From NCBI RefSeq assembly GCF_001278075.1, contig NZ_CP011340.1:992001-1056000 (forward strand): a DNA stretch of 64,000 nt, written 5' to 3'. Made by a program: the position numbers and the translations under genes. The notes under the pieces are model-generated. The model did not search any database and had not been told where the DNA came from. It saw only the letters and a program-made list of their open reading frames with translations. Positions within the stretch are counted from its first letter, which is position 1. Every line of letters begins with the position of its first letter. Shown one piece after another: positions 3,687-59,302 of this stretch. The DNA comes from Streptomyces pristinaespiralis. GTDB taxonomy: Bacteria > Actinomycetota > Actinomycetes > Streptomycetales > Streptomycetaceae.

Positions 3687-6575
3687 TCAGCGCAGCGACT
3701 TCAGTTTGGCGTCCACGAGCGCGGCCTGGTCACGGGCGTCGAGCCGGCGCCATGTCGACAGCGAGCGGTGGAAGTAGCGCCGTGCGGTCTGCTTCCGGCC
3801 GGTCGCATGGTGCAACTCGCCGAGCAGGCACGCCACACGCGCCTCCGCCCGGCGGTCACCGAGCTGCTGTTGCACGGCGAGCGCACCGACCAGCAGCGCG
3901 GACGCCTGCCCCGCGTCGCCCTGGCGCAGACACAGCTCACCGATGCTCTGCTGCACATAGGCCGCGCAGTGCGTGTCGGCGAGGTCGTCGAAGATGCCGA
4001 GCGCCCGCTCCAACTCGGCTCTTGCGACGCCTGGTTCACCGCGCAGCTCGTACAGCACGGCGATCCGGCGGCGCACCTGTGCCTCACGGTGCCGGTCACC
4101 GAGGTCGCGCGCGAGTTCCAGAGCCCCGTCGAGCCACCCGGCTGCGGTCTCAGGGTCCTTGCGCTCCAGCCACACCGAGGCGATCGCGTTGCGGGCGACG
4201 GCTTCGCCGTGCCGGTCGCCGGCCTCGCCGAAGCCGTCCAGCGCATCGGTGAAGGCCGCGAGCGCGGCGTCCAGATCACCGACAACCCTGTACACGGACC
4301 CGGCTCCCAGCGCCGCGACCGCCTCGCCGGACCCGTGCCCCAGGCCGGCGAAGATCTCCCGCGACCGGTCGAACGACGCGAGGGCCTCCGCATACCGGTC
4401 CTGGTAGAGGTGGAGCTGTCCCAGGTTGCGCAGGAGCGCCGCCGCCCGTGCGTCGGACGGGTCCGGCATCGCGTCGAGCACCAGCTGATGCGTCCTCAGC
4501 CAGTCTCCGTAGTAGCCGCGCATGTCGAAGAAGCCCGCCAGCTCGATCGCCAGATCGGCGGCGAGCAGGACGCGGCCGAGCCGGGTCGCGGAATCCACGG
4601 CGGCGACGAGGATGCGGCGTTCGCTCTCGAACCATTCCACGGGTAGCGCACGCACCCTGTCCGCGATGCCGGAGGCGGGTCCGGTCACCGGTGCCGGCTC
4701 GCCGAGAACGCCGAGGAAACGGGTGGGCATGGCCGCGTTCGCCGACCGGGCGAGCCCGATCAAGGCCTCGACGACCCGCAGTTGCCGGCGCACGCGCGTC
4801 TCGTGGCCCTCCGCCTCGGCCAGCTCCCGGGCGTAGCAGCGCAGCAGGTCGTGCATGCGATAGCGCTGCTGGCCGAGACGGTCCTCCCCCACCACCTCGA
4901 CCAGGTGCTCGTCGAGCAGCGTCTCCAGCGCCCGGGCGGCCTCATCGGCGTGGCCGGTGGCCACCGCCACGGCCCACCCGGCCACCGCGTCGTCGGCCAG
5001 GCGGCCGAAGGCGCGGAAGACCCTCGCCGCCGGCCCGGGCAGATGCCGGTAGCTCAGCTCCGCGCTCGCCCGTACCTCCAACTCGCCGGTACGCAACTGA
5101 TCGAGGCGTCCGCGCTCGTCGTGGAGGAAGTCCGCCAACGTGCCGACGGACCAGCCGGGACGGTTGGCCAGCCGGGCGCCCGCGATCCGTACGGCCAGCG
5201 GCAGCGACCCGCAGGCGGCGAGCACGCGGTCGACGTCCGCCGCCTCGGCGTGGAGCCGGTCGGGGCCGACGACGGCGCCGAAGAGCGCGCGGGCGTCGTC
5301 GCGCCGCATCACGCCGAGGGCCGAGTGGTGCGCCGGCAGGCCCGGCATCCGGCGGCGTGAACTGACGAGCACCGCCGAGCCTCCTGTCCCCGGGAGCAGG
5401 GGGCGTACCTGTGCGCTGCCGACGGCGTCGTCGAGGACGATGAGGAACCGCCTCTGTGCCAGGCGGGAGCGTAACAGCGCCGCCCGCTCGACCGGCTCAC
5501 CGGGGACGGCGCTGTCGATGACTCCGAGGCCGCGCAACATCTCGCCCAGGACGTCGGCGGGTTCACGTGGCCGGTCGCTGGTCCCGCCCAGGTCGACGAA
5601 GAGCTGACCGTCGGGAAAGGCCGCACGCACGCGATGGGCCACGTGCACGGCCAGAGTCGTCTTCCCCGATCCCGGCGGGCCCGACAGTACGGCGACGACG
5701 GGCTGCCGTCCGGCCGTCGACAGCAGTCTCTCGTGTTCGGCGACCTCGTCGGCCCGGCCGGTGAAGTCGGGGACGTCCATGGGGAGTTGGCACACCGGTG
5801 CGGGCGCCGGGCTGCGGCGCCGGCCGGCGTAGCCGTTCACCTGCTCCCCCATGGCGCGCAGCGGCTCGCTCGGTTCGATGCCGAGTTCGGCAGCGATGAT
5901 CCGTTCGGCCTCGGCGTACGCGGCGCGGGCCTCGGCGGTGCGGCCGGAGTCGTGCAGGGCGTGGACCAGCATCCGCCACAGGTCCTCGCGGAGCGGATCG
6001 TCGTGCAGCCGGGACCGTAAGCCGGCGATCACGGGTGCGTGGTCGCCCAGACGCAGCCTGACCTCGAGGCACTCGTCGACCGCGGCCGACCGCAGGCCCT
6101 CGAGCCTGGTCACCGCCGGGTCCCACACCACGCTGGCCGGCACGTCCTGCAGCACCCCGCCGCGCCAGAGTCCGAGGGCCGCTTCATAGGCGCGCAGCGC
6201 GGCGGCGTCATCGCCCTGGTCGCGCACCGTGCGCGCCCGGTCCAGCCGCTGCTCGAAGAGCAGCATGTCGAGGTCACCGGGTCCGATGTCGAGCGCATAG
6301 CCCGCCGGCTTTGTCCTCAGCCGGTCGGTGGCGGCGCCCGCCATGGACAGCGCCCGGCGCAAGGTGCGTACATAGGTGCGTACGTTGGCGACGGCGGACC
6401 GCGGTGCCCCGCCGGGCCACAGGACCTCGGTCAGCAGGTCGAGCGAGACGAAGCCGCCCGGCTGCAGCAGCAGCGTGGCGAGAACCGCCCTCGGCTTCGC
6501 CCCGCCCAGGCGGACCGGAACGCCGTCCACCCGCACCTGGAGCGATCCCAGGACCCCGAACGTCGGATCCCCCAT
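3687..6575 (-). CDS. AfsR/SARP-family regulator with NB-ARC and TPR domains
   Basis: A 962-residue cytoplasmic transcription regulator. The order is: a winged-helix SARP DNA-binding domain (about 1-100), a bacterial transcriptional activation domain (about 100-250), and an NB-ARC ATPase (about 270-560) with Walker A GPPGSGKTT and Walker B RFLIVLDDA. About 650-950 are tetratricopeptide repeats rich in A-x-x-Y and LGD-x-R units. I use ATG at 6575 because GGAGG lies 8 bases upstream; a longer open frame reaches 6668 without a ribosome site. Two rare TTA codons (Leu 186 and Leu 368) make translation likely to depend on the bldA tRNA. No biosynthetic cluster adjoins it, so its targets are unknown. 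Confidence 0.92.
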   Translation of the reverse strand: MGDPTFGVLGSLQVRVDGVPVRLGGAKPRAVLATLLLQPGGFVSLDLLTEVLWPGGAPRSAVANVRTYVRTLRRALSMAGAATDRLRTKPAGYALDIGPGDLDMLLFEQRLDRARTVRDQGDDAAALRAYEAALGLWRGGVLQDVPASVVWDPAVTRLEGLRSAAVDECLEVRLRLGDHAPVIAGLRSRLHDDPLREDLWRMLVHALHDSGRTAEARAAYAEAERIIAAELGIEPSEPLRAMGEQVNGYAGRRRSPAPAPVCQLPMDVPDFTGRADEVAEHERLLSTAGRQPVVAVLSGPPGSGKTTLAVHVAHRVRAAFPDGQLFVDLGGTSDRPREPADVLGEMLRGLGVIDSAVPGEPVERAALLRSRLAQRRFLIVLDDAVGSAQVRPLLPGTGGSAVLVSSRRRMPGLPAHHSALGVMRRDDARALFGAVVGPDRLHAEAADVDRVLAACGSLPLAVRIAGARLANRPGWSVGTLADFLHDERGRLDQLRTGELEVRASAELSYRHLPGPAARVFRAFGRLADDAVAGWAVAVATGHADEAARALETLLDEHLVEVVGEDRLGQQRYRMHDLLRCYARELAEAEGHETRVRRQLRVVEALIGLARSANAAMPTRFLGVLGEPAPVTGPASGIADRVRALPVEWFESERRILVAAVDSATRLGRVLLAADLAIELAGFFDMRGYYGDWLRTHQLVLDAMPDPSDARAAALLRNLGQLHLYQDRYAEALASFDRSREIFAGLGHGSGEAVAALGAGSVYRVVGDLDAALAAFTDALDGFGEAGDRHGEAVARNAIASVWLERKDPETAAGWLDGALELARDLGDRHREAQVRRRIAVLYELRGEPGVARAELERALGIFDDLADTHCAAYVQQSIGELCLRQGDAGQASALLVGALAVQQQLGDRRAEARVACLLGELHHATGRKQTARRYFHRSLSTWRRLDARDQAALVDAKLKSLR

Positions 6576-36389: not shown

Positions 36390-38110
36390 GCCTGCGGCCG
36401 GAGCAGTTGCGCAGCCACCAGTGGTACGGGACCGACGGGCTGCGCTCGTTCTCCCACCGGGCCCGTACCCGCCAGCTCGGGTATCTGCCGGAGGAGCATC
36501 TCGGCAAGCCCGTGATCGCGGTCCTCAACACCTGGTCGGACATCAACCCGTGCCATGTGCATCTGCGGGAGCGCGCCCAGGCCGTCAAGCGCGGGGTGTG
36601 GCAGGCGGGCGGGTTCCCGCTGGAGTTCCCGGTCTCCACCTTGTCGGAGACGTTCCAGAAGCCGACGCCCATGCTCTACCGCAACATGCTGGCGATGGAG
36701 ACGGAGGAGCTGCTGCGCTCCTACCCGGTGGACGGCGCGGTGCTGATGGGCGGCTGCGACAAGTCCACGCCGGCGTTGCTGATGGGTGCCGCGAGCGCGG
36801 ACCTGCCGACGGTGTTCGTGCCCGCCGGGCCGATGCTGCCGGGCCACTGGCGCAACGAAGTGCTCGGTTCCGGCACGGACATGTGGAAGTACTGGGACGA
36901 CAAGCGGGCGGGGCTCATCGGCGACTGTGAGATGAGCGAGCTGGAGAGCGGTCTCGCCCGCTCCCCCGGCACCTGTATGACGATGGGGACCGCCGCCACC
37001 CTGATGGCCGCGGCGGAGGCGCTCGGGGTGACGGTGCCCGGCGCCTCGTCCGTCCCCGCGGTCGACTCCGGGCACGACCGGATGGCCGCGGCGTCCGGGA
37101 TGCGGATCGTGGAGCTGGTGCGCCAGGACCTGAGGCTGTCGCGGATCCTGACGCGGGAGGCGTTCGAGGACGCGGTGACGACGGTCCTCGGCCTCGGCGG
37201 CTCCACCAACGCCGTCATCCATCTGATCGCCATGGCCGGGCGCGCCGGGGTGACACTGCGCCTGGAGGACTTCGACCGGATCGCCCGTACGGTGCCGGTG
37301 CTGGCCAACGTCCGTCCGGGCGGCGGGCCTTACCTGATGGAGGACTTCCACTTCGCGGGCGGGCTGCCCGGTTTCCTGTCCCGCATCCGTGACCTGCTCC
37401 ACCTGGACCGGCCCACGGTCGCCCACGCCACCCTGCGCCAGCAGCTCGACGGCGTCCAGGTGCACAACGACGATGTGATCCGCACACGTGACAACCCCGT
37501 CGCACAGGAGGGTGGCGTCGCGGTGCTGCGGGGGAACCTCTGCCCCGACGGGGCGGTCATCAAGCACATCGCCGCCGATCCGAGTCTGCTGAAGCACACC
37601 GGGCCGGCCGTGGTGTTCCCGGACTACCGGACGATGCAGCGCACGATCAACGATCCCTCGCTCGGCATCACCGCCGGCCATGTGCTGGTCCTCCAGAACG
37701 CCGGTCCCAAGGGCGGTCCCGGCATGCCGGAGTACGGGATGCTGCCGATCCCGGACCATCTGCTGAAGCAGGGTGTGCGGGACATGGTCCGGATCTCCGA
37801 CGCCCGGATGAGCGGCACCAGTTACGGGACGTGCGTCCTGCACATCGCGCCCGAGTCCTACGTCGGAGGACCGCTGGCCCTGGTCCGCACCGGGGACCTG
37901 ATCACCCTGGACGTCGAGGCGCGTTCCCTCCGTCTGGAGGTCACCGACGCCGAGCTGGAGCGCCGGCGGTCGGAGTGGACACCGCCCCCGGCGCGCTACG
38001 AGCGCGGCTACGGAGCTCTGTACAGCGAGCAGGTCACCCAGGCCGACACGGGATGCGACTTCGCCTTCCTGGCCAGGCCGGGCGAAGTGCCGGATCCGTA
38101 CGCGGGCTGA
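36386..38110 (+). CDS. IlvD/Edd-family sugar-acid dehydratase (L-arabinonate dehydratase-like)
   Basis: A 574-residue iron-sulfur dehydratase. Three cluster cysteines are visible: C56 (INPCH), C124 (GGCDKS) and C197 (PGTCMTMG). GLGGSTNAVIHL, RISDARMSGTSYGT and ESYVGGPLALV are family motifs. The WYGTDGLRSFSHRA opening and length resemble pentonate dehydratases rather than the branched-chain amino acid enzyme. The likely reaction is an aldonate to a 2-keto-3-deoxyaldonate, feeding the DHDPS-like enzyme. ATG at 36386 overlaps the previous stop; the GTG at 36377 is an alternative. Confidence 0.9.
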   Translation: MSLRPEQLRSHQWYGTDGLRSFSHRARTRQLGYLPEEHLGKPVIAVLNTWSDINPCHVHLRERAQAVKRGVWQAGGFPLEFPVSTLSETFQKPTPMLYRNMLAMETEELLRSYPVDGAVLMGGCDKSTPALLMGAASADLPTVFVPAGPMLPGHWRNEVLGSGTDMWKYWDDKRAGLIGDCEMSELESGLARSPGTCMTMGTAATLMAAAEALGVTVPGASSVPAVDSGHDRMAAASGMRIVELVRQDLRLSRILTREAFEDAVTTVLGLGGSTNAVIHLIAMAGRAGVTLRLEDFDRIARTVPVLANVRPGGGPYLMEDFHFAGGLPGFLSRIRDLLHLDRPTVAHATLRQQLDGVQVHNDDVIRTRDNPVAQEGGVAVLRGNLCPDGAVIKHIAADPSLLKHTGPAVVFPDYRTMQRTINDPSLGITAGHVLVLQNAGPKGGPGMPEYGMLPIPDHLLKQGVRDMVRISDARMSGTSYGTCVLHIAPESYVGGPLALVRTGDLITLDVEARSLRLEVTDAELERRRSEWTPPPARYERGYGALYSEQVTQADTGCDFAFLARPGEVPDPYAG

Positions 38111-51776: not shown

Positions 51777-53555
51777 CTAGAGCGCCGGGTGGGCGTTCTT
51801 CATGAGCTCCTGGAACTGCGCGGAGAACCAGTGACCGGAGACCGGGGCACCGCCCAGCGCGCCGGACATGTTGTTCCCGTTGCGTACGTTGCCCGTGTAG
51901 GTCGGGTCGCACATCCGGTCGAAGCCCTTGCCCTCGTCGTTCGGGATCTCCGAGCTGGAGCCGTCGGACTCACCCGGGGGCTTGACCCACAGGTAGGCGT
52001 CGATGCCCGCCTCGGGAGCCGCCTTCGGCCGCTCGCCGAGACCCGCGCCCGCCTGGTTGCACCAGTTGCCGAGGTGGATCCGGCGGTCGAGCTTGCCGCC
52101 GTTCACATAGGTGTCGACGCTGGTCTGCGGCCCCGGTCCGGTGGGCCGTGCGGTGCCGCCCCAGCCGTTGCGGGAGGTGTCGATCAGCATGCCGATGTTG
52201 GAGGCGAAGCCGGCCTGCACCAGGCGCTGGCGGAAGGCCTGGGCGTAGGACAGCTCATCGACGTAGCGGTTCCAGTCGATCCACTTGGACTGGCGGACGG
52301 AGGTGCCGTTCACCGCGTCGTCGATCGTGTAGTACGACTCCTTGAGGATGCCGTAGTTGGCGGTGTTGGTGATGAAGCCGTGGACGTACTCCAGCTTGCT
52401 TCCCTCGGCCTGGGCGGCCTGGGCGAACAGGTCGGCGGACGGGCCGAAGTTGTCGTCCCAGCCGAGCCAGCCGTGGTGTCCGGCGTCGATGTAGTTGTAG
52501 ACGTTGGGGATCGGGCCGAGCTTGGCCAGCGCGTAGCCGACGCCCTTGACGTAGTTGCCGTTCGCCTTCATCACGTCGCACTGCGGGGTGGCGGTGGGCC
52601 GGCTGCCCGCGTTGGTGATGAGGTTGGGCAGCGAGTCGATCTCGATGACGGTGGTGATGCGCAGACCCGCGTACTTCGGGTCGGAGACGGCCGCCGCGAT
52701 CGGGTCGATGAACTCGCTCTTGTAGCGCGGGAGTTCCTCGGGGCCGAGCTCGCCGTTGGAGGCGAGGGCGGAGCAGTCGCGACCGGGCAGGTCGTAGACG
52801 ACGATGTTGATGGCGAGCGGCTCGCCGCCGGACTGCTCGAGCGCCTCGTCGAGGTGGTCGCGCAGGCCCATTCCGCCGTTCACGCCCTCGATCGCCGCGA
52901 TGCGGTCGAGCCACACGGAGGTCGAGGTGTTGGCGATGCGGCTGCCGCCCGGTTCGGCGGCTGCCTTCGCCGACCATTCGGGGTTGACGTACATCTTCGC
53001 GCCGACGAACGGGTTGTCGACCTTGTCACCGGCCGGAGGGTCGGTCGGAGGGTCGGTGGGCGGGTCGGTCGGCGGGTCGGTCGGCGGGTCGGTGGGCGTG
53101 GTGCCGCCGTTGCAGGTCACGCCGTTGACCGCGAAGGACGTCGGTGCGGTGTTGGTGCCGCTGTAGGAGAACTGGGCGCCCGGCGAGACGGTCGCGCCGC
53201 CGGCGATGGACCGGTTCCAGTCGGCGCCCTTGACCGTGACGGTGCTGCCGGACTGCGACCAGGTGCCGTTCCAGCCGCTGCTGAGCTTCTGGTTGCCCGA
53301 GTAGGCGTACGTCAGCGTCCAGTTCTCGATCGCGGTGGTGCCGGTGTTCTTGACGTTGACCGTGGTCGTGAAGCCGGAGCCCCAGTCGCTGGTCTGATAG
53401 TCGACGCTACAGGCGATCGCCGCGGCGGCGGCGGGCGTCTGCATGAGGGTGACGGCGCCGGCGCCGGTGGCCAGGAGGCTGCAGGCGGCCAGCAGGGCGG
53501 TGCGCTTTTGTCGCAGTGGTGGCGCGGTGGCACGGCTCATGGTGTCGCGGCTCAT
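51777..53555 (-). CDS. Secreted GH6 cellulase (cellobiohydrolase type) with N-terminal CBM2
   Basis: A 592-residue exported enzyme. ATG at 53555 follows AAAGGA; an upstream ATG at 53624 gives an odd 23-residue addition. Order: signal (to about 47), CBM2 (about 48-150, cellulose-binding Trp residues), a (TDPP)n linker (about 155-177), and GH6 catalytic domain (about 185-592) with DLPGRDC, VIEIDSLPN, YIDAGHHGWLGW and the terminal WVKPPGESDG. Long active-site loops and length favour exo-acting cellobiohydrolase. A CebR-type operator lies 82 bases upstream. It is divergent from GH48, its classical synergistic partner. Confidence 0.95.
   Translation of the reverse strand: MSRDTMSRATAPPLRQKRTALLAACSLLATGAGAVTLMQTPAAAAAIACSVDYQTSDWGSGFTTTVNVKNTGTTAIENWTLTYAYSGNQKLSSGWNGTWSQSGSTVTVKGADWNRSIAGGATVSPGAQFSYSGTNTAPTSFAVNGVTCNGGTTPTDPPTDPPTDPPTDPPTDPPAGDKVDNPFVGAKMYVNPEWSAKAAAEPGGSRIANTSTSVWLDRIAAIEGVNGGMGLRDHLDEALEQSGGEPLAINIVVYDLPGRDCSALASNGELGPEELPRYKSEFIDPIAAAVSDPKYAGLRITTVIEIDSLPNLITNAGSRPTATPQCDVMKANGNYVKGVGYALAKLGPIPNVYNYIDAGHHGWLGWDDNFGPSADLFAQAAQAEGSKLEYVHGFITNTANYGILKESYYTIDDAVNGTSVRQSKWIDWNRYVDELSYAQAFRQRLVQAGFASNIGMLIDTSRNGWGGTARPTGPGPQTSVDTYVNGGKLDRRIHLGNWCNQAGAGLGERPKAAPEAGIDAYLWVKPPGESDGSSSEIPNDEGKGFDRMCDPTYTGNVRNGNNMSGALGGAPVSGHWFSAQFQELMKNAHPAL
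53037..53097. repeat. 12-base repeat encoding the TDPP linker
   Basis: Five copies of a GTCGGTGGGCGG-like unit encode (TDPP)n between CBM2 and the catalytic domain of GH6. Confidence 0.85.
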
Positions 53556-53636
53556 GGGGTGACGTGTCCTTTCGTCGGCGAATCGGGGGTGGGGACATTG
53601 CGCTGGTCGAGCAGCCGTGTGCACACGGCCTCACAG

Positions 53637-54064: not shown

Positions 54065-56980
54065 ATGTCTCCACCAGGAAGACGGCGCCCGCTGAGGCGC
54101 GTACTGACGGCGCTGGCCGCCGTCCTCTCGCTCCCCCTGACCCTGACCGCGACCGGTACGGCGCCGGCGCACGCCGCCGCCGTCCAGTGCAGCGTCGACT
54201 ACCGGACCAGCGACTGGGGTTCCGGCTTCACCACCGACCTCACCATCACCAACCGCGGATCCGAGGTGATCGACGACTGGACCCTGACGTACGCCTACTC
54301 GGGGAACCAGAAGCTCAGCAACGGGTGGAACGGCACCTGGTCCCAGTCCGGCAGCAACGTCACGGTCAAGGCCCCCGCCTGGAGCCGGTCGATCGCCGCC
54401 GGTGCCGCCGTCAGCACCGGCGCCCAGTTCTCCTACAGCGGCACCAACGCCGCGCCCACCTCGTTCGCCGTCAACGGCACCACCTGCACCGGCGCCCACC
54501 AGCCGCCGATCGCCGTCCTCACCAGCCCGACGGCCGGCGCGGTCTTCTCCGCCGGCGACGCGATCCCGCTGGCCGCCACGGCCGCCGCGGCCGACGGCGC
54601 GAATGTCACCAAGGTCGAGTTCTACAGCGACACGACCCTGCTGGGCACGGACACCAGCTCGCCGTACACCTTCAGCGCCACCGGCCTCGCGGCCGGCGAC
54701 TACTCGCTCTACGCCAAGGCCTACGACAGCCAGGGCGCCTCGGCCGAGTCGACCCCGGTCGGCATCACCGTGGCCACCGGCCCCGCACTGGTCGCCTCAC
54801 CCACACAACTCGGCATCCAGCAGGGCGCGTCGGGGACCTTCGACGTCAAGCTGTCCACCCGGCCGTCCTCGAACGTCACGGTCTCTGTGACCCGCACGGC
54901 GGGCAACACCGGACTGAGCGTGAGCAGCGGCGGAAGCCTCACCTTCACCCCGTCGAACTGGAACACCGCGCAGAAGGTCACCATCGCCGCCGACAGCGAG
55001 GGAACCGGCGCGGCCACCTTCAGGGTGTCCGCTCCCGGCCACACGGCGGCCGAGGTGACGGTGACGCAACTGGGCGGCTCCAAGGAGTACGACGGGCGCT
55101 TCCTCGAGCTGTACGGGAAGATCACCGACCCCGCCAACGGCTACTTCTCACCCGAGGGCATCCCGTACCACTCCGTGGAGACCCTGATCGTCGAGGCCCC
55201 CGACCACGGGCACGAGACGACGTCGGAGGCGTACAGCTACCTGATCTGGCTCCAGGCCATGTACGGCCGGATCACCGGTGACTGGACGAAGTTCAACGGC
55301 GCCTGGGAAATCATGGAGAAGTACATGATCCCCACCCACGCCGACCAGGCCACCGGCTCCTTCTACGACCCGAACAAACCGGCGACCTACGCGCCCGAGC
55401 ACGACCAGCCTTCCCAGTACCCGGCCGAGCTCCAGCCCTCCGTGACCTCCGGCAGGGACCCGATCGCGGCCGAACTGAAGAGCGCGTACGGCACGGACGA
55501 CGTCTACGGCATGCACTGGCTCCAGGACGTCGACAACGTCTACGGATACGGCAACGAGCCCGGCAAGTGCGAGGCGGGGCCGAGCGCGACGGGCCCCTCC
55601 TACATCAACACCTTCCAGCGCGGCCCGCAGGAATCGGTGTGGGAGACCGTGCCGCAGCCGACCTGCGACAGGTTCGCCTACGGCGGCACCAACGGCTACC
55701 TGGACCTGTTCACCAAGGACGCGTCCTACGCCAAGCAGTGGAAGTACACCAACGCGCCGGACGCGGACGCCCGCGCCGTGCAGGCCGCCTACTGGGCCGA
55801 CCTGTGGGCCAAGGAGCAGGGCAAGGGCTCCCAGGTCTCCGGAACCGTGGCCAAGGCCGCCAAGATGGGCGACTACCTGCGCTACGCCATGTTCGACAAG
55901 TACTTCAAGAAGGTCGGCAACTGCGTGGGTCCGACGACCTGCCCGGCCGGCACCGGTAAGGACAGCTCGCACTACCTGCTGTCCTGGTACTACGCCTGGG
56001 GCGGCGCGGCCGACACCTCGGCGGGCTGGGCCTGGCGGATCGGCTCCAGCCACGCGCACGGCGGTTACCAGAACCCGCTCGCGGCCTACGCGCTCAGCGC
56101 CTACGCCCCGCTGAAGCCCAAGTCGGCGACGGCGCAGGACGACTGGGCGAAGAGCCTGGACCGGCAGATCGAGTTCTACCGCTGGCTCCAGGCCGACGAG
56201 GGGGCCATCGCCGGCGGCGCGACGAACAGCGTCGGCGGACGGTACGAGGCGCCCGCGGCCGGCACGCCCACCTTCTACGGGATGGCGTACGACGAGAAGC
56301 CGGTCTACCACGACCCCCCGTCGAACCAGTGGTTCGGCTTCCAGGCGTGGTCGATGGAGCGGGTCGCGGAGTACTACCAGCAGACGGGTGACGCGCAGGC
56401 GAAGGAGGTGCTCGACAAGTGGGTCGACTGGGCGCTCTCCGAGACGACCGTCAACCCCGACGGCACGTTCCGGATCCCGTCCACGCTCCAGTGGTCCGGC
56501 AAGCCCGACACCTGGAACGCGGCGAACCCGGGCGCCAACGCCGGTCTGCACGTGACGGTGGCGGACTACACCCAGGACGTGGGCGTCGCCGGCGCGTACG
56601 CCAAGGTGCTGACGTACTACGCCGCACGGTCGGGTGACACCGAGGCCAAGTCCGTGGCCAAGGCGCTGCTCGACGGGATGTGGGACCACCACCAGGACGC
56701 GCTCGGCATCGCGGTGCCCGAGACGCGCACCGACTACAGCAGGTTCGACGACCCGGTGTACGTGCCCAGTGGCTGGACGGGCACGATGCCGAACGGCGAC
56801 ACGATCAACTCCTCGTCGACGTTCGCGTCGCTGCGCTCCTTCTACCAGGACGACCCCGCCTGGTCGAAGATCGAGAGCTACCTGGCGGGCGGCGCCGCAC
56901 CGGAGTTCACGTACCACCGCTTCTGGGCGCAGGCGGACATCGCCCTCGCCATGGGGGCGTACGCGGAACTGCTCGAGTGA
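54065..56980 (+). CDS. Secreted GH48 cellobiohydrolase with N-terminal CBM2
   Basis: A 971-residue exported exocellulase acting from reducing ends. ATG at 54065 follows AGGAGA. Order: signal (1-39, ending AHAAA), CBM2 (about 40-143, cellulose binding), a beta-sandwich domain (about 145-235), a second small beta domain (about 238-335), and GH48 catalytic domain (about 340-971). The proton donor is probably E388 in [10 protein letters not shown], and tunnel motifs such as [18 protein letters not shown] and [21 protein letters not shown] are present. The CBM2 is strikingly like that of the divergent GH6. A CebR-type operator overlaps the promoter. Confidence 0.95.
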
Positions 56981-57203: not shown

Positions 57204-57653
57204 ATGTCCGAATTACTGACAGCCGCGGCTGTCATCGCCCCGTTCGTCAGCACCGCGGCGACATCCTTCGCCGGCGCCGTCGTCCAGTCGGCGCAGAGCA
57301 GACTGGCGGACGGTGCGGTGGAGAGAGGCCGCGTACTCCTGGGCCGGGTGCTGCGCAGGAATCCCGACGACCCGCCGTGCACCGAACAGGACGCCGCCGC
57401 GGCCACCGCCGTCGAGCAACTCTCCGCAGAGGACCGGCAGATCCTCGAGGCAGCGATCGGCACCTGGCTGACCAACGGGAACGACCTGAGCGCGGAGTCC
57501 CTGCGGTCGCACATCGAACTGGCCCACCGCACCACCCGCAGCGCCGACCGGATCGAGGTGACGTCGCACGGCGACGGCTCACCGGCGATCGGCAAGATGG
57601 AGACCGCGAACTTCTACTTCAATCCGCGTCCCGGTCAGGGGGCCGGTAGTTGA
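57204..57653 (+). CDS. Small helical protein with C-terminal amyloid-like GD-x-SPAIG motif
   Basis: A 149-residue protein of unknown function. ATG at 57204 follows GGAGGGAG. The N-terminal 1-32 is a hydrophobic Ala/Val-rich helix able to insert in or lie on a membrane. Residues 33-115 are amphipathic helices. The C terminus (about 115-145) is beta-prone and Gly/Ser-rich: IEVTSHGDGSPAIGKMETAN, with GDGSPAIG at 123-130. The layout (helical domain, then a short amyloid-like motif) resembles effectors of bacterial amyloid signalling. The stop overlaps the TTG start of the next gene, whose product starts with the same motif. The role is inference only. Confidence 0.75.
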   Translation: MSELLTAAAVIAPFVSTAATSFAGAVVQSAQSRLADGAVERGRVLLGRVLRRNPDDPPCTEQDAAAATAVEQLSAEDRQILEAAIGTWLTNGNDLSAESLRSHIELAHRTTRSADRIEVTSHGDGSPAIGKMETANFYFNPRPGQGAGS

Positions 57654-58387
57654 CCGGTGAGCACCCGGTCGACAGCCGCGCGAGCACGAGCGGCGACCAG
57701 TCCCCGGCGATCGGGTTCGTCAGCAAGCTGTTCCTCAGCGTGTTCGTCGGAGACGTCGTCGAGTTCGCCGACAAGGCCAAGCGCTGGGGCGGCTGGAACT
57801 GGCCGCCGTTCCTGCTGGTCCTCTCCCTCGGCAGCGTCGCCCTGCTCAGCGCGCCCGACGGGCCGTTCCACCAGTTCGTGTGGGTCTACACCGCCATCGG
57901 CGCCGCCCTCGCACTGGCGCTGGCGCGGCTGATAGCTCCCTCCGGCGGGCGGAGGGCCCGCCGCTGGCGGGTGCTCGTGTCGGCGACGGCGGTGATCTGC
58001 GCGGTGGCCGGCACCATCGGCATGGACCACCTCGCGGAACACGGCGAGATCGATGTCACCGGCCGGACCCGTATCACCCCGGACACCGCCACGAACGGCT
58101 CGCGGCTGCGGCTCGTCGTGGACAGTGCCGCCGAGCGCTCTCGTCTGCGCCTGACCCTGACGATCACGGACGCGGCCCGCCGCTCCCAGTTCTGTGGACC
58201 GGAGACCACCTACACCGCCGAACTGCCGGGGAACGCGAACACCCGTGTGGAGGGGGTGCGGAGCGGCCAGGCGGTCGAGTTCCCCCTGGGCGGCCTCGAG
58301 GGCGAGATCGAGGCCCGGATCACCCTGCTGACCGACGAAGGCTGCCGGATGAGCCTTTCCGTCGCGGACGTCGTACTTCACGACTGA
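57650..58387 (+). CDS. Membrane protein with N-terminal GD-x-SPAIG motif and outer beta domain
   Basis: A 245-residue protein; TTG at 57650 overlaps the previous stop (TTGA). The cytoplasmic N terminus holds GDQSPAIG at 15-22, matching the previous protein's C terminus. Three membrane helices follow (about 52-69, 75-96, 107-124). The basic RRARRWR at 100-106 between helices 2 and 3 fits the inside, so the C-terminal domain (about 125-245) should face outside. That domain is beta-rich (LRLTLTITDAARRSQFCG, VEFPLGGLEGEIEARITLL) with two Cys that could pair. It looks like a receptor or scaffold; no known family is recognised. Confidence 0.75.
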   Translation: MTGEHPVDSRASTSGDQSPAIGFVSKLFLSVFVGDVVEFADKAKRWGGWNWPPFLLVLSLGSVALLSAPDGPFHQFVWVYTAIGAALALALARLIAPSGGRRARRWRVLVSATAVICAVAGTIGMDHLAEHGEIDVTGRTRITPDTATNGSRLRLVVDSAAERSRLRLTLTITDAARRSQFCGPETTYTAELPGNANTRVEGVRSGQAVEFPLGGLEGEIEARITLLTDEGCRMSLSVADVVLHD

Positions 58388-58396
58388 GAGGACACC

Positions 58397-59302
58397 GTGT
58401 CCGACATCCCGGAATCCCGGCTCCCCGCCGTACGCGTGCCGAGGCGCGTGGTCGGTGCGGCGACGGCCGTCGCCACCCTCGTGAGCCTGGCGGCCTGCTC
58501 CACCGAGGAACCGCGGCCGGAGTTCCTCGGCGTGAACAGGGTCACCGTCGCGATGCACAACGACCTGCCCGGCCTGTCCTACTCCTCGAACTACGACCGT
58601 TCGGGGCTGGACTTCCTGCTGCTCCAGCACATCGAGGAGGAGCTGGACGTCGCGTTCAGCGAGCCCGTCGACGTGTCCTCCGGCGACCGGGTGACCCAAT
58701 TGCTGGAGAGGAAGGCGGACATGACGATCGCCTCGTTCTCCATCACCGCCGAGCGCATGGACGAGATCGACTTCGTCGGCCCCTATCTCACCACCCGGCA
58801 GGGCTTCCTCGTCGCGGCGGACTCCGATGTGGAGACCCTGGCCGACCTGCGCGGCACCACCATCTGCACCTGGGAGGGGACCACGTCCCAGGAGGCGCTG
58901 GACGACATCTTGGACACCGTGGGCGCGGACCCGGTCACCCTCGACGACGCGTCCGACTGCATCGACCAGCTGATCGCCGGCCAGGTCCAGGCGGTCTCCA
59001 CCGACCAGGCGATCCTGTACGGCTTCGCCCGTCAGCACGAGAAGGACGGTCTGCGCGTGGTGCCGGACGTGACGATAGGAGCACCTCAGCACTACGGCAT
59101 CGGGCTGCCGAAGGGATACGCGGCGGACTGCCGTCGCCTCGAGGCCTGGCTGAAGAGGCATGTGGGCACCAGCACCTGGATCCGTGACGTCGAGACGTCC
59201 CTGCCGGCGCTCACGGAGGAGGACCGCGGCTGGATCAGCAGCCACAAGCCGAGCAGCGCGGCGATCGAGGCCCGGTCCTGCCGGGACCGGACCAGCCCCT
59301 GA
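58397..59302 (+). CDS. Orphan family 3 solute-binding lipoprotein
   Basis: A 301-residue lipoprotein. GTG at 58397 follows GAGAGGA. The signal ends in lipobox LAAC with the anchoring Cys near residue 35. The mature part is a family 3 periplasmic binding fold: YDRSGLDFLLLQHIEEEL, ADMTIASFSITAERMDEIDF, LRGTTICTWEGTTSQEALDD and AGQVQAVSTDQAILYGF. Such proteins bind amino acids or small polar ligands. No permease or ATPase adjoins, and it is 10 bases after the membrane protein, so a sensing role with that protein is plausible rather than transport. Confidence 0.88.
   Translation: MSDIPESRLPAVRVPRRVVGAATAVATLVSLAACSTEEPRPEFLGVNRVTVAMHNDLPGLSYSSNYDRSGLDFLLLQHIEEELDVAFSEPVDVSSGDRVTQLLERKADMTIASFSITAERMDEIDFVGPYLTTRQGFLVAADSDVETLADLRGTTICTWEGTTSQEALDDILDTVGADPVTLDDASDCIDQLIAGQVQAVSTDQAILYGFARQHEKDGLRVVPDVTIGAPQHYGIGLPKGYAADCRRLEAWLKRHVGTSTWIRDVETSLPALTEEDRGWISSHKPSSAAIEARSCRDRTSP

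Follow-up and report, generated by a model that had tools for sequence, protein, structure and literature searches.

Can a membrane protein take the place of the NLR ATPase in an amyloid-type bacterial signalling pair? This question is raised by three adjacent genes, here called A, B and C, in a stretch of 64,000 nucleotides from Streptomyces pristinaespiralis (NCBI RefSeq assembly GCF_001278075.1, contig NZ_CP011340.1, positions 992,001 to 1,056,000 of the forward strand), referred to below as the window. In Bell-NLR systems of bacterial amyloid signalling (BASS1-10), as described in the available portions of the literature, an effector with a small helical domain carries a C-terminal motif, and its overlapping neighbour encodes the partner with a matching N-terminal motif (PMC7889193, PMC9815663, PMC8086366, PMC12261475). 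A sequence-only reading of the window had noticed a similar layout, with GDGSPAIG near the end of protein A (residues 123–130, bases 57570–57593), GDQSPAIG near the start of protein B (residues 15–22, bases 57692–57715) and a four-base overlap of the two genes (bases 57650–57653, TTGA), and all of these positions proved correct, as did the coordinates of both genes. Here we propose, with a probability of about 0.68, that A, B and C form a three-gene transmembrane signalling unit on the Bell/BASS plan, in which a membrane receptor replaces the NLR. The term Bell is used for whatever adjoins NLRs with a shared motif, this being the yardstick rather than the published Bell profile. The features concerned are the following, with C starting nine bases past the end of B.

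57204..57653, + strand: gene A, open reading frame of 149 aa with an ATG start; Bell-type protein with a six-helix domain and a C-terminal motif tail
57204..57545, + strand: predicted helical Bell-type domain of A, residues 1–114 (AlphaFold2 helices, hydropathy, hhalign)
57561..57593, + strand: C-terminal motif of A, TSHGDGSPAIG, in a low-confidence tail of the model
57650..58387, + strand: gene B, open reading frame of 245 aa with a TTG start; membrane protein with an N-terminal motif
57683..57715, + strand: N-terminal motif of B, STSGDQSPAIG, in a disordered N-tail that is cytosolic by predicted topology
57800..58042, + strand: three predicted transmembrane helices of B, residues 51–66, 73–95 and 101–131 (AlphaFold2 model, hydropathy)
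58049..58384, + strand: C-terminal beta domain of B, residues 134–245, predicted to lie outside (model and alignment)
58397..59302, + strand: gene C, 301 aa, solute-binding protein family 3 (Pfam SBP_bac_3), with a lipobox-like LAACS

Conservation of the A-B-C gene order

In the window, the pair TSHGDGSPAIG / STSGDQSPAIG gave a best local match score of 36 (z 3.5, p ~0.007, 300 shuffles) and, since a window holds many gene pairs, the window alone is unconvincing. A and B are each present in a single copy in their own genome (a second row for A had an E-value of 2.9). Leaving aside the clusters of the window itself, protein searches returned 25 relatives for A and 33 for B, all named rows being Streptomyces, and when genome contigs were scanned with a B profile, 28 loci were detected in Streptomyces and Embleya. 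The sequence-only reading had regarded homologues lacking one of the motifs as evidence against a pair; an A-like reading frame was found directly upstream of B in all 28 loci, and a matching A tail and B head were recognized by eye in 27 of them, the exception being L015, where A is truncated. Among 29 loci including the window, the overlap of A and B is exactly four bases in 28 and 17 bases in L014; the B starts were picked as those closest to a four-base overlap, and most loci have just one start nearby. Gene C follows B in all 29 loci (26 by sequence pattern, and L015, L022 and L028 by tblastn with E-values of 2e-55 or better).

In a genus sample, the B profile matched 30 of 295 genomes, including some with B-like proteins lacking A, and the A profile matched 39 of 295, many of these matches being adjacent to NLRs. 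In a phylum sample, B matched 5 of 396 genomes, namely its own, three more of the genus and one with a marginal partial match (E-value 7e-4).

Two observations on individual loci are recorded here. In L015 (3693-3872), A is just 60 aa in frame, retains its start and very end and looks internally deleted, and B and C look intact. In L010, L011 and L014, a 2-oxoglutarate dehydrogenase gene lies downstream of C on the opposite strand (by eye; by Pfam for L010 only). According to the accessible part of PMC9769921, this enzyme is under GlnH-GlnX-PknG control in Corynebacterium glutamicum; the adjacency may simply reflect shared synteny of one clade.

Co-variation of the motifs between partners

The loci of the contig scan and of the genus search were combined and, after removal of eight duplicates, provided 40 non-redundant pairs; L015 was excluded for its short A, and the pairs of L154 and L156, found later, stand outside the statistics. 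The last 70 residues of A were aligned locally with the first 70 of B and compared with 300 shuffles, and representatives were obtained by thinning on B-core identity. The A tail matched the B head better than shuffles at p <= 0.017 in 39 of the 40 pairs, with a mean score of 52.1 for cognate and 31.8 for non-cognate combinations. This excess persisted upon thinning. For 21 representatives below 70% identity, cognate pairs scored 52.0 against 31.1 for permuted ones (p 5e-5, the lowest value attainable with 20,000 permutations; the cognate partner scored highest in 8 of 21); below 55% identity, the 11 representatives gave 47.9 against 31.3 (p 5e-5; cognate best in 7 of 11), and below 45%, eight representatives gave 48.6 against 28.6 (p 1.5e-4; cognate best in 7 of 8). 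Three control comparisons, A core with B head, A tail with B C-terminus and A tail with the transmembrane region of B, gave no excess (z -1.3 to 0.2).

The motif type also switches jointly in both partners. Examples are GSAGFGYVHHL / RSLGFGYVHLL in L009, PTTHGDHSLAAGEI / PTTHGDHSIAAGNI in L025, RIGDHATFHL / SIGDWATFII in L131, TIGDNATFNL / TIGSGATFNL in L132 and VIGSVGTFTQ / IIGNAGTFNQ in L135 (longer form GDNNIVIGSVGTFTQ / GDNNNIIGNAGTFNQ); in the pair of L156, SYGDRTINGGTFGDKNTFNFG / SYGDRTINGGTFGDRSTFNFG, 19 of 21 residues are identical. Motifs that did not co-vary between partners had likewise been seen as speaking against the pair, and the permutation tests, the controls and these joint switches point to strong co-variation. 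The matching motifs at the facing ends of the adjacent genes, first noticed in the window, are therefore real, being backed by 40 homologous pairs and by permutation tests, and the pairing of A with B is well supported. A table of motif classes was set aside, its rules having been drawn up after viewing the sequences and hence providing no test; B of L149 is unclassified in it, and L007 and L131 are multiply classified.

Relationship of protein A to NLR-adjacent effectors

Away from B, the A profile yielded 23 matches in the genus sample (one with an E-value of 1e-45, the rest from 8e-11 to 5e-4, per genome). At 17 of these 23 loci, the downstream partner carries a matching N-terminal motif (z >= 3), as in the pair ASGDGAVAVETNHGVISTGDGATI / ASGEQAVAVGTNSGIISTGGHATI of L110, and 15 of the 17 have the four-base overlap, L109 and L152 being paired without it. 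A scan of ten of the 17 partners matched every one of them to NB-ARC, NACHT, nSTAND or AAA_16, seven above the Pfam cut-off (NB-ARC in L100, L102 and L105, NACHT in L111, AAA_16 in L115 and L117, nSTAND6 in L118); TPR repeats also occur in seven of the ten. The NLR pair of L107, SGERSPAV / SGSRSPALG, is the closest among NLR pairs to the SPAIG of the window; this locus was read in the wrong frame or to the wrong stop, and for L114 the wrong downstream frame was selected. L099, L113, L150 and L151 are A loci not beside B for which no NLR partner is shown. In L099 (4001-5620), the A paralogue has kept its motif tail intact, and the gene after it encodes an unrelated membrane protein that lacks a matching motif (z 0.3). 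A later family sample contained further A-NLR-type pairs.

With the motifs removed, hhalign aligned the profile of the 40 A domains with that of 18 distant A proteins over 56 columns (probability 97.5, E-value 6.9e-12), and reversed controls gave probabilities of 1.8 and 1.9. The distant profile comprised 18 of the 23 proteins, namely the 17 motif-paired ones and L114, with L099, L107, L113, L150 and L151 excluded. Judged by these profiles, the A domain is homologous to NLR-adjacent effectors of other Streptomyces, which makes A a protein of the Bell type with a partner other than an NLR. A home-made hidden Markov model (HMM) of the Bell-NLR motif, built from the 17 with L114 excluded too, placed 27 of the 40 A tails and 24 of the 40 B heads beyond the 95th percentile of shuffles.

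AlphaFold2 models A with helices at residues 3–21, 24–32, 38–50, 61–71, 75–90 and 97–114 and a mean pLDDT of 72 over the whole protein, whereas the tail from residue 111 onwards, including the motif, has a mean pLDDT of 43–55 per block. A hydrophobic stretch spans residues 4–20 and is present in 8 of 10 A proteins inspected. Burial of the motif within a stable globular domain would have told against a signalling pair; in the models, both the A and the B motif are placed in low-confidence tails. Scans with Pfam, NCBIfam and PADLOC gave A no name and recognized no enzyme domain. A weak Pfam HET-s match (E-value 0.12, residues 92–120) stops where the motif starts and was not used.

Protein B, gene C and a putative sensor module

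B had no Pfam or NCBIfam match above cut-off, and PADLOC did not name it either. Its AlphaFold2 model (mean pLDDT 75) comprises a disordered segment at residues 1–35 (pLDDT < 50), long helices at 51–66, 73–95 and 101–131, and strands between 140 and 244; with Foldseek, just weak jelly-roll-like matches were obtained (best E-value 3.7e-4). A basic loop, RRARRWR, lies between helices two and three, which fits a B N-terminus inside the cell. Cys182 and Cys232 are invariant in all 53 aligned sequences (P0058, with a scrambled C-terminus without Cys232, was left out), which fits an extracytoplasmic disulfide. The alignments A3 and A4 exclude P0051 and P0058, as incomplete or scrambled relatives of B, P0001 and P0027, as clusters belonging to the window itself, together with some close relatives. 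The predicted topology is an N-tail in the cytosol and a beta domain outside. That the partner of A is a membrane protein rather than an NLR ATPase, as the sequence-only reading had remarked, agrees with the three modelled membrane helices and with the lack of any Pfam or NCBIfam match of B above cut-off.

C matches SBP_bac_3 of Pfam above cut-off (E-value 9.2e-15) and TIGR01096 with an E-value of 1.5e-29, yet below the cut-off of the latter; its second-best solved relative is an entry named GlnH, 6h1u (3.3e-15). A lipobox-like site was found in 24 of 29 C sequences. A pattern of the FSIT..R type is present in 27 of 29 and one of the STDQ..L type in 28 of 29, both of which we place close to the site where proteins of this family bind amino acids.

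A B-like protein without an A match was found at 11 loci, ten of them without an obvious motif and ten with a C-like gene next to the B-like one (both by eye; L119 was not called for the latter). In L129 (2359-3441), a B-like core stands behind a long N-terminal domain, cyclase-like by eye and without a Pfam match, and is followed by a C-like binding protein; it is possible that this represents a different output on the same type of sensor. These A-less loci and L129 suggest that B and C act like a sensor module with a variable cytosolic part, and the mostly motif-less state of the A-less loci suggests that the motif accompanies the Bell-type partner. In the remaining one of the 11, L123 (2460-3420), there are motif stretches resembling those of an A tail and of a B head, but out of frame with each other, and the pair looks disrupted.

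Proposed mechanism and comparison with known systems

The three genes would work as follows. C would be anchored on the outer face of the cell as a solute-binding protein of the amino-acid type, and would there bind a small ligand and touch the extracytoplasmic beta domain of B. B would relay the signal across the membrane, along its three helices, to the short N-tail in the cytosol, where clustering or a change of shape would turn the motif, of the G-x-x-S-x-A-I-G type, into a beta-rich seed. This seed would recruit the matching C-terminal motif of A, so that A clusters or polymerizes and its helical Bell-type domain is switched on, probably at the membrane, with membrane damage or growth arrest as the outcome. 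We infer the contact of C with B, the direction from B to A, the ligand and the outcome. An amyloid nature of the motif contact is suggested by homology and by analogy with known systems. In its full form, namely an outside ligand acting through a solute-binding lipoprotein so that the cytosolic tail of the receptor nucleates a prion-like beta fold and a Bell-type effector takes over this fold by templating, the proposal is tentative, and we would rate it somewhat below an even chance. The amyloid-type signalling pair envisaged from the sequence, with a membrane protein as the partner, is supported by the co-varying matched motifs, the homology of A to NLR-adjacent effectors and the modelled disordered tails.

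As far as the consulted portions of the BASS literature go, A-B-C resembles Bell-NLR systems in the placement of the motifs, the gene overlap, the occurrence in filamentous actinobacteria and the homology of the A domain to NLR-adjacent effectors. It differs from them in that B is a membrane protein with a predicted extracytoplasmic beta domain instead of an NLR, in the solute-binding protein as a third gene and in the failure of the Bell-NLR motif HMM to recognize the motif of the window. Because the NLR is missing, A-B-C is not a strict member of BASS.

On the input side, the proposal for GlnH-GlnX-PknG is that a cytosolic kinase is governed by a solute-binding lipoprotein together with a membrane protein (PMC6069109, PMC9769921). 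The likeness lies in the co-encoded trio of solute-binding lipoprotein, transmembrane transmitter and soluble cytosolic effector, and in the relationship of C to 6h1u. Unlike GlnX, with four transmembrane segments and helical periplasmic domains, B is modelled with three helices and a beta domain and varies in hydropathy, and the output is a Bell-type protein instead of the kinase PknG: A, with 149 aa and an all-helical model, has no kinase match in Pfam or NCBIfam. A motif shared by GlnX and PknG is not mentioned in the consulted portions of these two papers. A third parallel is offered by the fungal NWD2/HET-S and HELLP/PNT1 pairs and by RHIM, where, in the part of PMC7889193 available, a helical effector that targets membranes bears a short motif, and the N-terminus of the receptor carries its match; in the fungal cases the two genes are adjacent. 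The likeness to these systems is one of layout, with no sequence homology claimed, and their receptors, as described there, are NLRs or kinases, unlike B. A-B-C thus resembles a sensing layout nearest to GlnH-GlnX-PknG joined with an output layout nearest to Bell-NLR. No description of a membrane-protein partner of a Bell effector was found among the titles and abstract openings listed by the literature searches, which covered 20 of 239 and 15 of 62 papers in two cases and mostly lacked subscription papers.

Counter-evidence and alternative explanations

Several results weigh against the proposed signalling unit. One defining element of BASS, the NLR, is absent. With the Bell-NLR motif HMM, neither motif of the window exceeds shuffles (A -2.1 bits, B -0.6 bits), which we read as drift of the window motif. 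L136 fails the shuffle test of A tail against B head (p 0.073), the only failure among the 40 pairs. Of the ten scanned NLR-side partners, three match only below the Pfam cut-off (AAA_16 in L101, nSTAND5 in L108 and NB-ARC in L110), and Foldseek gave no fold match for A (best E-value 0.54). The number of hydropathy segments varies over the 40 B proteins, being three in 22, four in 8, two in 8 and one in 2; the window's B is among the four-segment cases, with an additional segment at residues 19–37. Finally, identical residues in cognate pairs share codons in 146 of 231 cases (63%) against 51% in permuted pairings (p 0.002), and over all 40 pairs in 298 of 447 cases against 245 expected from pooled codon usage. 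Motif-to-motif copying or genome-specific codon bias may thus be behind part of the similarity.

The alternative that survives best keeps the receptor and effector roles but replaces the amyloid with an ordinary contact, in which short beta strands would dock the A tail on the B tail one-to-one or in low order. The motif is short, with many glycine and small residues, the models show disorder in both tails, and co-variation calls for specificity of contact without requiring a fibril; the silence of the Bell-NLR motif HMM on the window motif also suits this view. On the other hand, A is homologous to effectors whose partners bear matching motifs at the same ends, and the partner motifs are alike instead of complementary, which is what templating needs, whereas unlike surfaces need no resemblance. 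We consider this docking model unlikely.

A reversal of direction, with B and C as an output or regulated membrane device and A as a cytosolic adaptor, scaffold or inhibitor controlling B, seems more doubtful still. It conflicts with the homology of A to the effector side of Bell-NLR pairs, and a B-like core with a C-like gene and no A, found in ten loci by eye and once behind another N-terminal domain (L129), is what would be expected of a sensor with exchangeable outputs. Such a reversal draws on the membrane nature of B, on the resemblance of C to a transport-type binding protein, which may have a role in transport, on the lack of a recognized enzyme domain in A and on an overlap like that of translationally coupled genes.

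The codon sharing reported above would also suit a match maintained by copying between neighbouring repeats, through gene conversion or local duplication, with no pairing function. We judge this highly improbable, as even in cognate pairs the codons differ for 85 of the 231 identical residues, the excess is limited to the facing protein ends and holds across representatives below 45% identity in B, and the motif accompanies the Bell-type partner (by eye); copying may itself be how the pairing is maintained. That two ordinary overlapping genes resemble each other by chance, for which the mere p 0.007 of the window-only match might speak, can practically be dismissed, since the co-variation seen in 40 homologous pairs and their permutation tests already refutes it.

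Other features of the window

Upstream of A, two divergent cellulase genes were found, GH6-CBM2 at 51777-53624 (- strand) and GH48-CBM2 at 54065-56980 (+ strand). The stretch between their starts holds perfect TGGGAGCGCTCCCA palindromes (53637, 53984) as well as a copy with two mismatches (53840), and one further two-mismatch match lies at 36566; the palindrome resembles the operator of Streptomyces cellulose regulation. At 5163-5732 (- strand), an NB-ARC match (9.2e-12) falls in a 1009-aa frame and is one of eight in the genome. The NB-ARC loci of this genome were dropped as a positive control, being about 3.6 kb each and too short for judging neighbours, and NLR-adjacent effectors of other genomes were used.

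Implications for bacterial amyloid signalling

Bacterial amyloid signalling has so far been described as leading from an NLR to an effector. A clade in which a membrane protein and a ligand-binding partner stand in the place of the NLR would point to a general role of the motif in connecting receptors with Bell-type effectors. If the mechanism proposed here is true, amyloid signalling would be begun at the cell surface and not by a cytosolic NLR, and the module of solute-binding protein and membrane receptor would be open to different outputs. The paired switching of motifs provides natural sets of cognate and non-cognate partners for studying the specificity of templating, and such a clade would offer a tractable system, one perhaps driven simply by adding a small molecule to the medium.
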